Assembly: GCA_017993615.1 (NCBI GenBank)
Contig: JAGOMJ010000001.1
Coordinates: 99,817-136,227 of the forward strand
Reading direction: 5' to 3'
Source of the DNA: Smithella sp.
Lineage (GTDB): Bacteria > Desulfobacterota > Syntrophia > Syntrophales > Smithellaceae
Length of the DNA: 36,411 bases
Each line of letters opens with the position of its first letter. Within the stretch, counting starts at the first letter, position 1. The notes under the pieces are model-generated. The model searched no databases. It worked only from the letters and a program-made list of their open reading frames with translations, and was not told the origin of the DNA. Both the position numbers and the translations under genes were made by a program. Below, one piece after another: positions 17,952 to 22,606 of the stretch.

Positions 17952-18872
17952 TTATTTCAGGAAGCCCTGAATAATTCTGTTGATGGCTTGATCGTAAGTC
18001 AGTCCCAGGCTCATGAGTTTCGTCAACTGGTCATTGGCAATTTTGCCGATGGAGGCCTCATGCGTCAGTTCCGCGTCCGGATGCAGGGCCTTCAGTGCGG
18101 GCATGGTTTCGTTGGTGCCGTTGTCCATGATAATAGCATCGCATTCGATGTGTCCGAAGCATTTGTTCCTGGCTTCCATGTTCGCGTGAAAGATTTGCTT
18201 GGAATTGCCTTTCATCACCGAGCGGGAAATCACATTGGCCCTGCTGCCGAAGCCTTTCAGTATGATGTTATTGGTGGATACAGCCGATTGTTCGCCTTCC
18301 GTCAGGACGCGTTCCATAATCAGTAACAGACTGTCCGGACCGAGTTCCGCTTCATTAAGACGGTTGGCTTCATCCACACCGCTTATCTGCGTCAGCTCCA
18401 TTTCCGCTGTTGCTCCCTCATCCAGAAAGACTTTTGTTGTTGGATTAAGCGATCGCCTTCCTTTTCCCTCTCCCATGGCGAAATGTTTTTCCACATAGGT
18501 GACTTTTGCCTTCTTTCCTACATGAAAATCATGGATGCCCGCATGGCCTTCGGCTTCGGACGAACCGCAGTGAATGCCGCAACCGGCCACGATCGTTACC
18601 TCTGCTCCTTCGCCGATGATGAATGAATTATAAACAACATCATAAAGTCCGGCCTGGCTCAAAATGACCGGGATATGAACGGATTCGTTTTTGGTCCCCG
18701 GTTTAATGGTCACAATAATACCCGTTCCGTCGGCGTTGGTTTCAATATTAATATTGGCCGAGACTTCGCGATGCAGCAGTTTACCGTTTTTCCTGATATT
18801 GTAGGCGCCTTTAGGCAGGCTTTCCAGATCGGCAACGGTCTTCAGCAGTTTTTTATCTAAAGCATTCAGCAT
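17952..18872 (-). CDS. sufB: SufB/SufD-type Fe-S assembly scaffold
   Basis: A 306-aa SufB/SufD-family protein, shorter than E. coli SufB (495 aa) or SufD (423 aa), with the beta-helix core and the family C-terminus (AELTHEASIGKIANDQLTKLMSLGL...AINRIIQGFL). Candidate ligands include Cys residues in AGCGIHCGSSEAEGHAGIHD and the ARNKCFGHIECD segment. Paired with only sufC, it resembles the minimal two-gene SUF systems of archaea and anaerobes, in which one SufB-like protein serves as homodimeric scaffold. ATG 18872 is preferred over TTG 18878 because AGAGGG lies 8 bases upstream of it. The gene overlaps sufC by 20 bases. Role in cytoplasmic [4Fe-4S] assembly is inferred from family. Confidence 0.85.
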   Translation of the reverse strand: MLNALDKKLLKTVADLESLPKGAYNIRKNGKLLHREVSANINIETNADGTGIIVTIKPGTKNESVHIPVILSQAGLYDVVYNSFIIGEGAEVTIVAGCGIHCGSSEAEGHAGIHDFHVGKKAKVTYVEKHFAMGEGKGRRSLNPTTKVFLDEGATAEMELTQISGVDEANRLNEAELGPDSLLLIMERVLTEGEQSAVSTNNIILKGFGSRANVISRSVMKGNSKQIFHANMEARNKCFGHIECDAIIMDNGTNETMPALKALHPDAELTHEASIGKIANDQLTKLMSLGLTYDQAINRIIQGFLK

Positions 18873-19608
18873 TTTCAAATCCCTCTAATTTGTTGTGGTA
18901 TGCGCAAATACTCATGTCATTCAGCAACGGCAGCGCATCTTTCAGATTGCCGGTATAGGCGATGCGTCCCTGATTTAAAATGATGATCACGTCTGCGACA
19001 TCCAGAAAAGCCTTGTTGTGGCTGACAACGATCGTTGTTGTTTTAGGCGTCAGTTCTTTTTTGAGAAGACTGACCATGGGACCGATGGTCCATAAATCAA
19101 TGCCCGTATCCGGTTCGTCATAAATAGCCAGCTTCGGATTGGTGGCAATCGTGGTGGCCAGCTCGATTTTCTTGATTTCGCCGCCCGAAAGTTTTGAATC
19201 GACTTCTTTATCGAGAAAAGAAAGCGGACAAATGCCCACCCGGGATACAATTTCCAGAAACTTTTTCTCCTCATCCGTTCCCGTGGCGATCGACAGCAAA
19301 TCACGGAACGAAATGCCTTTAAAACGGGCCGGCTGTTGAAAACTATATGCGATGCCCAGTTTGGCTCTGTCCGTAATCGAAAGACCGGAGATATCCTGGC
19401 CGTTAAAAACAATGGAGCCTTGTGTGATCGGATTAATGCCCATGATCAGTTTGGCCAGCGTTGTCTTTCCGCTGCCGTTGGGGCCCGTAATGGCGTAAAA
19501 TTTTCCGTCTTCAAAGGTAAAATCCAGGCCGTCAATGATATTGCGTGGGGCACTGTTTTCACCATCGCCGCCGGGAGCGGTAAAAAAAACCTTATTTAAT
19601 GTTAACAT
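18853..19608 (-). CDS. sufC: SufC Fe-S assembly ATPase
   Basis: A 251-aa ABC-type ATPase that drives conformational change in the SufB-like scaffold. Walker A GPNGSGKTT is at 42-50, the Q-loop at Gln91, signature LSGGE at 140-144, Walker B LAIYDEPDTGID from 160, and the H-loop His197. YSFQQPARFKG and the DEPDTGID sequence are SufC-like. A 20-residue insertion-like stretch early (APGGDGENSAPRNII) replaces the usual short loop. No sufS, sufD, sufE/U or iscR gene is nearby, so the sulfur donor must come from elsewhere. It is the first gene of a sufC-sufB-rmlB unit with an upstream promoter at 19691-19720. Confidence 0.92.
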   Translation of the reverse strand: MLTLNKVFFTAPGGDGENSAPRNIIDGLDFTFEDGKFYAITGPNGSGKTTLAKLIMGINPITQGSIVFNGQDISGLSITDRAKLGIAYSFQQPARFKGISFRDLLSIATGTDEEKKFLEIVSRVGICPLSFLDKEVDSKLSGGEIKKIELATTIATNPKLAIYDEPDTGIDLWTIGPMVSLLKKELTPKTTTIVVSHNKAFLDVADVIIILNQGRIAYTGNLKDALPLLNDMSICAYHNKLEGFENAECFR

Positions 19609-19720: not shown

Positions 19721-19794
19721 CGCTGAAAAATGATACATCCCTGCCGGTATTTTTCAGGAGTGGAATTGAAGAAACATGGGTGATGGGCCAAATA

Positions 19795-19842
19795 AAATCA
19801 GGCGGCAGATGTTTTGAAAACAAATGCCGCCTGATTTTTCTT
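19795..19842 (-). terminator. Rho-independent terminator of the histone-like gene
   Basis: A perfect 13-bp stem (19795-19807 with 19825-19837) with GGCGGCA/TGCCGCC core and AT-rich ends encloses a 17-base loop that itself contains GTTTTGAAAAC. On the minus strand the stem ends in TGATTTTATTT. It is also T-rich on the plus strand, so it may work both ways. It lies about 100 bases after the histone-like stop codon and ahead of the suf promoter. Confidence 0.8.
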
Positions 19843-19938
19843 TCGAGGCACAACGACAAAAAGCATTTTCCTTTTTCAGGGGAAAATTATTGCACCGTTA
19901 TGCCCCCTTCGTCAAAAAAAGTTTAAATGAAATTTTCT

Positions 19939-20088
19939 TTATTTCTTCTTTGCTGCTTTCTTTGCCACTTTTTTCTTGGGAGCTGCTTTCTTTACAGCTT
20001 TCTTTGCCACTTTTTTCTTGGGAGCCGCTTTCTTTGCCGCTTTCTTTGCTACTTTTTTCTTCGGTGCTGCTTTCTTTGCTGTTGCCAT
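19939..20088 (-). CDS. Histone H1-like Lys/Ala-rich DNA-binding protein
   Basis: A 49-aa protein consisting only of Met, Ala, Thr, Lys, Pro and Val. After a 4-residue start (MATA) it is three consecutive copies of a 14-aa unit, KKAAPKKKVAKKAA (residues 5-18, 19-32, 33-46; the second ends in V), then KKK. About half the residues are Lys. The composition matches the C-terminal tail of eukaryotic H1 and bacterial proteins such as AlgP and Hc1/Hc2, so nonspecific DNA compaction or RNA binding is expected. Support is strong: AAGGAGG 9 bases before the ATG, a near-consensus promoter at 20160-20188 and a clear terminator downstream. It is too short to be found by length-based gene calling, and the opposite strand shows a misleading Leu/Ser-rich reading frame. 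Confidence 0.85.
   Translation of the reverse strand: MATAKKAAPKKKVAKKAAKKAAPKKKVAKKAVKKAAPKKKVAKKAAKKK
19945..20076 (-). repeat. 42-base tandem repeat inside the histone-like gene
   Basis: Three in-frame copies of a 42-base unit encode the three 14-aa repeats. The copies differ at a few mostly synonymous sites, such as CCG versus CCC for Pro and GTA versus GTG for Val. Slippage or unequal recombination could change copy number. Confidence 0.75.
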
Positions 20089-20507
20089 TAGGTGAAGCCT
20101 CCTTTATAAAAATTTGATTTCAACTGCTGTAAAAAACTTTACTTGCTTCGTTGCGAAGAATTTTACTTCATTTTTTTTCTTACGTCAACAAAAACTATAA
20201 AAAATAATGAATTATTTTACAAGCATCCCGCAAGCGAAAAGATCGCAGGAGAAATGCCGGGGAATGAAAAACGAAAAATGGCGATGTTTTCATGAAGAGC
20301 GATACGCTGCAGGCCACGTCATCACTGGGATTCCCGATGATGAAGAAAATAAAATATAGTTTAGTGCAATCGCCGCATACAGGCATTCCACGTGGAAACT
20401 CTTTTTTTTAAAAAAATATTTCTGAGGACTGAAAAAAATAAAATGAGAAAAATATTCAAATCGACAAAAAAAATTATGGTGAAAACGAAAAGTATGGAGG
20501 AGAAAAA
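20089..20507. other. Long AT-rich gap between the histone-like and NlpC/P60 genes
   Basis: 419 bases. The first 100 hold the histone-like gene leader and promoter. In the rest I see no supported gene; short frames on both strands lack ribosome binding sites. A perfect 12-base palindrome, TTCCACGTGGAA, lies at 20386-20397, followed by eight Ts. Bases 20400-20500 are A/T-rich (many A runs) on the downstream side of the NlpC/P60 gene. Confidence 0.5.
20160..20188 (-). promoter_or_regulatory. Strong sigma70-type promoter for the histone-like gene
   Basis: Minus strand: TTGACG (20188-20183), 17-base spacer rich in A, TAAAAT (20165-20160). The transcript would have a leader of about 65 bases including a CTTCG-TTG-CGAAG hairpin (about 20145-20157) before the AAGGAGG site. 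Confidence 0.7.
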
Positions 20508-21272
20508 TTATAAATAGGTTCTCGCTCCGACATATTGTCTGGTGAAGTAATCGGACGAAAGGTGGTCAATGCGAATTTCATTGCCCTGCGATGAGGCATG
20601 AATGAACTGGTTGTCGCCGACATATATGCCGACATGCGAAACATGATGATTCCCCCGATCGGCAAAAAAGACCAGATCTCCCTTCTGCAGTTCGTTTTTC
20701 TCAATGGCATTTCCGACCGCATACTGTTTTCTGGAGTTGCGGGGCAGATTCAGGCCGTTGAGCTGATACACCGTCATGGTCAAGCCGCTGCAATCGAATC
20801 CGTCATCGGGAGAGGCCCCGCCCCAGAGATAGGGAACACCGAGAAAATCCCGGGCTGTTGTGACAATGGATTCCCTGAGATAGTCGGTTCCGTATTGTTT
20901 TTGTCGGGCTACGGAATAATCTTCGGGACGGACAATGTAAAATTCCTCAATGACCTTTGCGTCGATCAGTTCCAGGGCTCTCTTTTTAGCCAGGTCCTTG
21001 GTGCTGAAATTACCGAAGCGCACTTTGAAGAATTTGTCATCGGCAAGAAAATAGGTTGCATCGAGCCCGTGATTGATTTTCAGCCGTTCCGTCAAGCGAA
21101 CTGCATTTTCAACATTTCGAAAAGCGCCCGCCTGTATCGTATAGCCCATCAGATTTAAAGCAGGTTTGTATCTGGGCGCCGACGCAACTCTCCGGTGATG
21201 CGCCTTGCCCGAGCAGGCCAGCATCAGGGTAAAAAGTAAAAACAAGCAAATGATCAGCCGGTATTTTTTCAT
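20508..21272 (-). CDS. Lipoprotein with SPOR and NlpC/P60 endopeptidase domains
   Basis: A 254-aa cell-wall hydrolase. The N-terminal lipoprotein signal peptide has its lipobox Cys at residue 20 (LMLAC). A SPOR-like domain follows (about 43-112, YTIQAGAF...FFKVRFGNF), expected to bind denuded septal peptidoglycan. The NlpC/P60 domain (about 130-254) has catalytic Cys161 in FDCSG, His213 in HVSHVGIY and a third polar residue near His225. It probably cleaves stem-peptide bonds in the periplasm. ATG 21272 is chosen because it forms an ATGA overlap with the cca stop; ATG 21287 is less likely. It is the last gene of the thi-cca run. SPOR plus NlpC/P60 on one lipoprotein is reasonably common in Deltaproteobacteria. 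Confidence 0.9.
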   Translation of the reverse strand: MKKYRLIICLFLLFTLMLACSGKAHHRRVASAPRYKPALNLMGYTIQAGAFRNVENAVRLTERLKINHGLDATYFLADDKFFKVRFGNFSTKDLAKKRALELIDAKVIEEFYIVRPEDYSVARQKQYGTDYLRESIVTTARDFLGVPYLWGGASPDDGFDCSGLTMTVYQLNGLNLPRNSRKQYAVGNAIEKNELQKGDLVFFADRGNHHVSHVGIYVGDNQFIHASSQGNEIRIDHLSSDYFTRQYVGARTYL

Positions 21273-22606
21273 GATTCTATATTCCATCTGTTACGCACAT
21301 AATTTATTGCCTGTTCGACGGACTGGATTCGTCCTTCCAGCTGTTCTTCCTCCACCGCAAGAAGAATATCTTTGATGATTTTCCCCGGAGTAAACCCCAT
21401 GGCGATCAAATCGTTTCCGGTTAATAAACGAGGAGGATGCAGATCGTCAAGCGCTAGAATCTGCAACTGTTCGCGGCAGAACTCATAATTGTCCAGCATT
21501 CCGTGACTGGCCAGACAATCGAGACGATGCAGTTCCAGATGAAGATCGAAATCGGGCATGCGCAGAAATCTTTTAAGACGTCCGGGCCGCATTTTCCGGA
21601 CATTCATGAATACCATATGCTGACGAATCAGATTGACGACGGTTTCTCTCTGCATGCGGGAAAATTTTAATCGTTGCATGATGGTGTCGGCAATAATTTC
21701 TCCCTGCTGCACATGGCCGTAGAAGTGCACGCCCTTTTCGTCTTCGCTGCGGGTGAGCGCTTTACCGACATCGTGTAAGAGCGTTCCCCACGCCAGGCAG
21801 ATATTTTTTTCCCGCTCTCCGTCTGCGGGCAGCAACTCAAGCATTTTTAACGTGTGCTGCCAGACATCGCCCTCGGGATGAAACCGCGGCGGTTGTTCCA
21901 CGCCTTTGAGACGGCAGATCTCCGGTAAAATGTTTTGCAGGATATCCGTTTGCATCATCAGTTCAAATCCCCGGCGGGCGCCGCCGCGGGTCAGAATCTT
22001 GTTGAGCTCTTCCCGGATGCGTTCAACACTGATGTGTCGGATATTCGAAGCTTCGCGTTTGACGGCATCCTGTGTCGCCGGTTCCAGGTCGAAATGAAGG
22101 TTGGCTGCAAACCGCACCGCCCGGAGCAACCTCAGATAATCCTCACGGAACCGTTTTCCCGGATTGCCGATAGTTCTGACAATTTTATTGTCGATATCAA
22201 AACGGCCGTTGACATAATCAATAATATCTCCGGTATCCGGATCCATTAAAAGGCCGTTGATCGTAAAATCGCGCCGGAAAACATCTTCCCGGGCAGTGGA
22301 ATAGTGAATCCGGGAAGGGTGCCGGCCGTCTTCGTAAACATCATCGCTGCGAAACGTGGCAACCTCAAAAGGATGATTGTCGATAATGACGGCAACAACG
22401 CCGAACTTGGCGCCGATGGCTACGGTGCGGGGAAAGAGTTTCATGACCTCCTCCGGCCGCGCCGACGTTACAATATCGTAATCGCTGGAAGTCTGGTTGA
22501 GAATAAAATCGCGAACACACCCGCCGACAAAATATGCCTCGTGACCGGATTCTCTCAGCCGGTGAATAATTTCCCTGGCATGAAGGCGATGGGCATGATC
22601 AGGCAA
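21269..22606 (-). CDS. cca: CCA tRNA nucleotidyltransferase / poly(A) polymerase family with HD domain
   Basis: A 445-aa class II nucleotidyltransferase. The G-box GGCVRD is at 29-33, and metal ligands Asp42 and Asp44 are in SDYDIVT. RRDFTINGL and the RFREDYLRLLRAVRFAA motif (RNA- and NTP-binding) follow. A C-terminal HD phosphohydrolase-like domain has HTLKMLE and LLHDVGK (His278-Asp279). It adds or repairs tRNA 3'-CCA, or could be a poly(A) polymerase; the domain set suits CCA-adding enzyme with HD. The tRNA genes in this window already encode CCA, so a repair role is likely. The start is TTG 22606 with GAGG about 8 bases upstream. It lies 18 bases after thiC. Confidence 0.88.
   Translation of the reverse strand: MPDHAHRLHAREIIHRLRESGHEAYFVGGCVRDFILNQTSSDYDIVTSARPEEVMKLFPRTVAIGAKFGVVAVIIDNHPFEVATFRSDDVYEDGRHPSRIHYSTAREDVFRRDFTINGLLMDPDTGDIIDYVNGRFDIDNKIVRTIGNPGKRFREDYLRLLRAVRFAANLHFDLEPATQDAVKREASNIRHISVERIREELNKILTRGGARRGFELMMQTDILQNILPEICRLKGVEQPPRFHPEGDVWQHTLKMLELLPADGEREKNICLAWGTLLHDVGKALTRSEDEKGVHFYGHVQQGEIIADTIMQRLKFSRMQRETVVNLIRQHMVFMNVRKMRPGRLKRFLRMPDFDLHLELHRLDCLASHGMLDNYEFCREQLQILALDDLHPPRLLTGNDLIAMGFTPGKIIKDILLAVEEEQLEGRIQSVEQAINYVRNRWNIES

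Follow-up and report, generated by a model that had tools for sequence, protein, structure and literature searches.

A very short histone H1 tail-like protein encoded by a conserved single-gene unit in Smithellaceae, with a putative role in the nucleoid

In this study, a small gene encoding a 49-aa lysine-rich protein was identified on the minus strand of a 36,411-nucleotide stretch of Smithella sp. DNA (the window, i.e. the whole stretch analysed), and it was found with its own promoter and ribosome binding site in nearly all genomes of its family. That it is a real protein-coding gene is close to certain. Judging from its composition and from analogy with known proteins, the product is probably (with a probability of roughly 0.7) an H1-like polycation with a role in the nucleoid, where it would coat and compact DNA. 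The host, a MAG of the Smithellaceae (Syntrophales, Thermodesulfobacteriota), has an assembly (G000) of 2.5 Mb in 105 contigs. By the NlpC/P60 protein encoded next to the small gene, its closest named relatives are Smithella, Smithellaceae and 'Syntrophaceae' MAGs. The features of the unit and of its flanks are listed in Table 1.

Table 1. Positions in the window of the small-gene unit and of the genes flanking it
Feature	Position	Strand	Basis
Flanking gene, SufC-like ABC ATPase (synteny marker, outside the unit)	18853..19608	-	Pfam ABC_tran
Intrinsic terminator hairpin, 14-bp stem	19794..19838	-	Folding
Small gene, 49-aa lysine-rich H1-tail-like protein	19939..20088	-	ORF, codon comparison of repeats, orthologues
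Predicted 5' leader, ~65 nt	20089..20153	-	Deduced from -10 box
Shine-Dalgarno (SD) AAAGGAGG, 9 bases before ATG	20098..20105	-	Invariant in 30/30 family loci
Promoter block TTTTTG-TTGACG (-35), 17-bp spacer, TAAAAT (-10)	20160..20194	-	Conservation in family
Flanking gene, SPOR + NlpC/P60 protein (synteny marker, outside the unit)	20508..21287	-	Pfam PF05036, PF00877

The protein (MATAKKAAPKKKVAKKAAKKAAPKKKVAKKAVKKAAPKKKVAKKAAKKK) consists of MATA, three 14-aa repeats and a final KKK, and carries a charge of +24. Its translation agrees with the first-pass annotation in containing only Met, Thr, Lys, Ala, Pro and Val, including 24 Lys, 16 Ala, 4 Val and 3 Pro. The three repeats had been described there as exact; the three 14-aa units stand (KKAAPKKKVAKKAA, KKAAPKKKVAKKAV and KKAAPKKKVAKKAA, in order), but the second copy differs from the otherwise identical others by a V instead of an A at its residue 14. 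In pairwise comparison, 3 to 6 codons distinguish the copies, and most of these differences are synonymous (5/6, 4/4 and 2/3). No other ORF of such K/A/P/V/T composition occurs within the window. AlphaFold, run on the single sequence, returned one long helix (pLDDT 82, pTM 0.40), which was left uninterpreted because such prediction tends to render charged Ala/Lys repeats as helix.

To locate orthologous loci, the NlpC/P60-SPOR gene was used as an anchor, and in relatives the sequence downstream of this gene was examined. A K/A/P/V/T frame lies directly downstream in 29 of the 31 family genomes with an anchor orthologue. When a further 20 loci were read, the frame was present in the family genome among them (G033) and absent from all 19 loci of other Syntrophales families, some of which keep NlpC and suf adjacent, yet without the small gene. 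It was also next to NlpC/P60-SPOR in 9/9 named Smithellaceae/Syntrophaceae loci, the species of which are partly shared. The two family genomes lacking it at this locus differ: one (G005) has a shorter stretch with NlpC followed by sufC, and the other (G004) also lacks the suf genes there and has a sugar-nucleotide dehydratase gene next. As both genomes are fairly complete, the small gene is non-essential. Several family members showed no suf gene within the stretch examined, so the constant neighbour is NlpC and not suf. The first-pass annotation had named absence of the frame from all close relatives as grounds for rejecting the gene; this does not apply, because the frame occurs in nearly all Smithellaceae genomes.

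Across the family, the proteins are 36-84 aa long with a net charge of +18 to +36, are made nearly entirely of K/A/V/P/T and contain no acidic or aromatic residues. Between-species differences are mostly synonymous, with pN/pS between same-length orthologues of 0.06-0.36, values to be taken as indicative, because repeat sites are not independent. The comparison of orthologues shows what appears to be selection at the protein level, with turnover of repeats between species; variation in repeat number had been anticipated between strains and was found here between species.

The window also holds a two-gene sufC/sufB-like unit (17952-19608) with a short SufBD protein of 308 aa, which may be a Suf-type system in minimal form. 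On a contig of 5330 bases (C78), the same assembly has another cca-NlpC-small gene-suf locus (L002). Its small protein of 56 aa is near-identical to that of another genus of the family (G020/L067), and the contig is a probable contaminant.

The promoter upstream of the small gene (TTGACG-17-TAAAAT) matches the consensus at 10/12 positions. A scan for consensus promoters, which found 6 sites against 2.8 expected, is weak evidence by itself. Across the family the block takes the form TTTTTGTTGAC-N9-AAAATaAAGTAAAAT. In 30 family loci, most of its positions carry 1.4-2.0 bits (1.85 on average in the AAAATaAAGTAAAAT part), against about 0.8 in the variable central part of the spacer and about 0.5 in the sequence after the block. 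With its constant 17-bp spacer, it reads as a sigma-70-type promoter. A search of 51 family genomes allowing up to two mismatches, with the reversed pattern as a control, found the block in 43 of them, once in each and twice in G000, compared with 0-1 for the control. The second G000 site is on the probable contaminant contig, and no further site within two mismatches was present in that assembly besides these two. Because the block occurs once per genome, it is specific to the small gene, not a regulon box. An SD and a lysine-rich frame follow 62-77 bases downstream in 29 of the 30 promoter-block loci read; the remaining one (L189) showed no SD and start downstream of the block. Family-wide, conservation of the second spacer half (AAAATaAAG) roughly equals that of the -35 and -10 boxes, and it is possible that this fixed half acts as an operator or that an exceptionally strong promoter is required.

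Outside the SD region the leader is unconserved, with 62-77 nt between the -10 box and the ATG in relatives. At the other end of the unit, the hairpin folds at -30 kcal/mol (z = -6.4); it was not reported by a terminator scan of the window, presumably because its loop is long and its T run impure. Most relatives have a strong hairpin of differing sequence within ~200 bases after the small gene, and those of genus members often share a similar GGCGG...CCGCC core. The first-pass annotation had proposed a real transcription unit and protein with a near-consensus promoter, an AAGGAGG-type ribosome binding site and a strong terminator. All of these are borne out by the fold, the block kept family-wide, the invariant SD and the frame in nearly all family genomes. 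Its description of the transcript unit as probably abundant fits the conserved promoter and ribosome binding site.

We propose that this monocistronic gene gives Smithellaceae a very short counterpart of the histone H1 C-terminal domain, consisting of the tail alone. A conserved promoter of its own, the invariant SD and the terminator would ensure the supply of a polycation (+24 in 49 residues), whose paired lysines, with small A/V residues and an occasional proline between them, would neutralise phosphate along DNA. The polycation would coat the nucleoid and help compaction without sequence specificity, alongside HU/IHF-type proteins. As the HU/IHF family has four matches in G000, the small protein would be an addition and not a replacement. 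Selection on charge, length and small-residue composition would allow the repeats to expand, shrink and recombine, while promoter and ribosome binding site stay fixed. Expression, DNA binding and compaction are what we infer from these features. DNA binding was reported for AlgP/PhaF tails of like K/P/A composition (PMC9239181), and Hc2 of like composition goes with DNA binding and varies in length by repeat gain or loss (PMC2848022). The Bordetella BpH1 was reported to be dispensable (PMC2848022), which fits the losses of the small gene in the family.

The first-pass annotation had suggested a nucleoid-compacting or RNA-binding function; by composition, DNA, RNA and other polyanions are indistinguishable as targets. 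It is conceivable, though we consider it unlikely, that RNA or ribosomes are the main target and that the protein is an RNA chaperone or coacervate former and not a nucleoid protein. Both RNA and DNA are bound by disordered tails rich in lysine, and the protein has no DNA-specific domain; however, the neighbouring genes (NlpC/P60, Suf and sugar-nucleotide genes) offer no evident connection with ribosomal or RNA genes, although a CCA-adding enzyme is encoded two genes upstream. A role in tethering PHA or polyphosphate storage granules to the nucleoid, as the KPAA tails of AlgP and PhaF do, is improbable. One PhaC_N match in the genome exceeds the cut-off, but it covers PhaC only partially (31 bits); the protein consists of the tail alone, with no phasin or other granule-binding domain, and a search of the genome for polyphosphate kinase of the PPK1 type found none. 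It is more doubtful still that such a short and strongly cationic protein is a peptide directed at membranes or other cells, or a substitute for divalent cations, with no nucleic-acid role, as a signal peptide is not evident (the sequence starts MATAKK...) and, from general knowledge, Ala/Val-Lys units are closer to H1 tails than to membrane-active peptides. Finally, a small RNA of ~360 nt with an incidental frame, for which the conserved promoter and terminator would speak, is contradicted by the invariant SD, a frame open in all orthologues and the excess of synonymous change, as well as by the unconserved leader and an Rfam search yielding nothing above the gathering score (sub-threshold chance matches only), and can hardly be upheld.

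Outside the family, a profile search of the order and phylum gave a single match (G119), which only suggests rarity because the search is insensitive, recovering just 14 of the 51 family genomes at E <= 1e-5. This match, in another Syntrophales family (L207, 1498-1640), is a comparable gene, likewise lysine-rich and tail only (MATAKKVVKKAAPKKK...), that has a AAAGGAGG of its own but lies at an unrelated locus and lacks the promoter block. A phage search gave no match.

The same genome also encodes a protein of ~77-150 aa with a desulforedoxin-like N-terminal motif (CEVCGL...CGCA...ICCEEPM) and an H1-like K/A/P tail (L005 1431-1754, minus strand; L124-L153, L209-L222). It was present in 35/36 family genomes searched and in 11 other Syntrophales families read, mostly with H1-like tails, and scored 13.2 bits against Pfam Desulfoferrod_N, under the 23-bit cut-off. 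It shares its tail composition, and DNA similarity, with the small gene, but differs in its CxxCG...CC metal-binding-like N-terminal domain and in being order-wide. A literature search found no paper joining desulforedoxin with histone H1. One could speculate, at long odds, that the tail-only polycation on its fixed promoter and this order-wide protein form a two-part H1-like chromatin system in Smithellaceae, with compaction possibly responsive to iron or redox in syntrophic growth.

If the proposed nucleoid role is correct, the small protein would rank among the shortest bacterial H1-like proteins. Its naturally occurring lengths (36-84 aa) and repeat types, all behind a fixed promoter, could readily be used to test what charge and length of H1 tail a nucleoid requires. 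Since half of its residues are lysine, the protein would yield trypsin pieces too short to see and would be missed by routine proteomics, and sequence searches are hindered by low-complexity filters. The small gene was named by none of the libraries searched, and no paper joining Smithella with histone-like or lysine-rich proteins was found in a literature search.

Against known H1-like profiles, the small protein scored 7.3 bits with Hc2 (Pfam PF07382; E = 6.3, gathering cut-off 40 bits) and 9 bits with the Burkholderia histone H1-like profile (NCBIfam NF038053; cut-off 80). It has no Pfam domain and no H1 globular winged-helix domain, and an AlgP/PhaF-type N-terminal domain was absent, the protein being tail only in 30/30 loci read. 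Searching the PDB by sequence brought up nothing beyond weak matches to tails of histone H3 (E of 0.3 at best), which were put down to composition.

With the eukaryotic histone H1 C-terminal domain it has in common a low-complexity Lys/Ala/Pro/Val composition, but it lacks the winged-helix globular domain and is far shorter than eukaryotic H1, and common descent is unsupported. The C-terminal tails of AlgP and PhaF in Pseudomonas are likewise tandem K/P/A units resembling the H1 tail, with a variable repeat number (PMC9239181); these tails are joined to an N-terminal domain, whereas in Smithellaceae the tail stands alone. Lysine-rich low-complexity repeats are also common to Hc2 (HctB), BpH1 of Bordetella and the Burkholderia Hc2-like proteins, and length varies by repeat gain or loss in Hc2 and Hc2-like proteins (PMC2848022) as in the small protein. 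Hc2 and its like are longer (149-237 aa, compared with 36-84 aa) and built of pentamer or 36-mer repeats instead of 14-aa-type units. Having the lysine/Ala-rich low complexity and the repeat-number variation of the H1-like functional kind, the small protein is most likely a very short form of this known bacterial kind.
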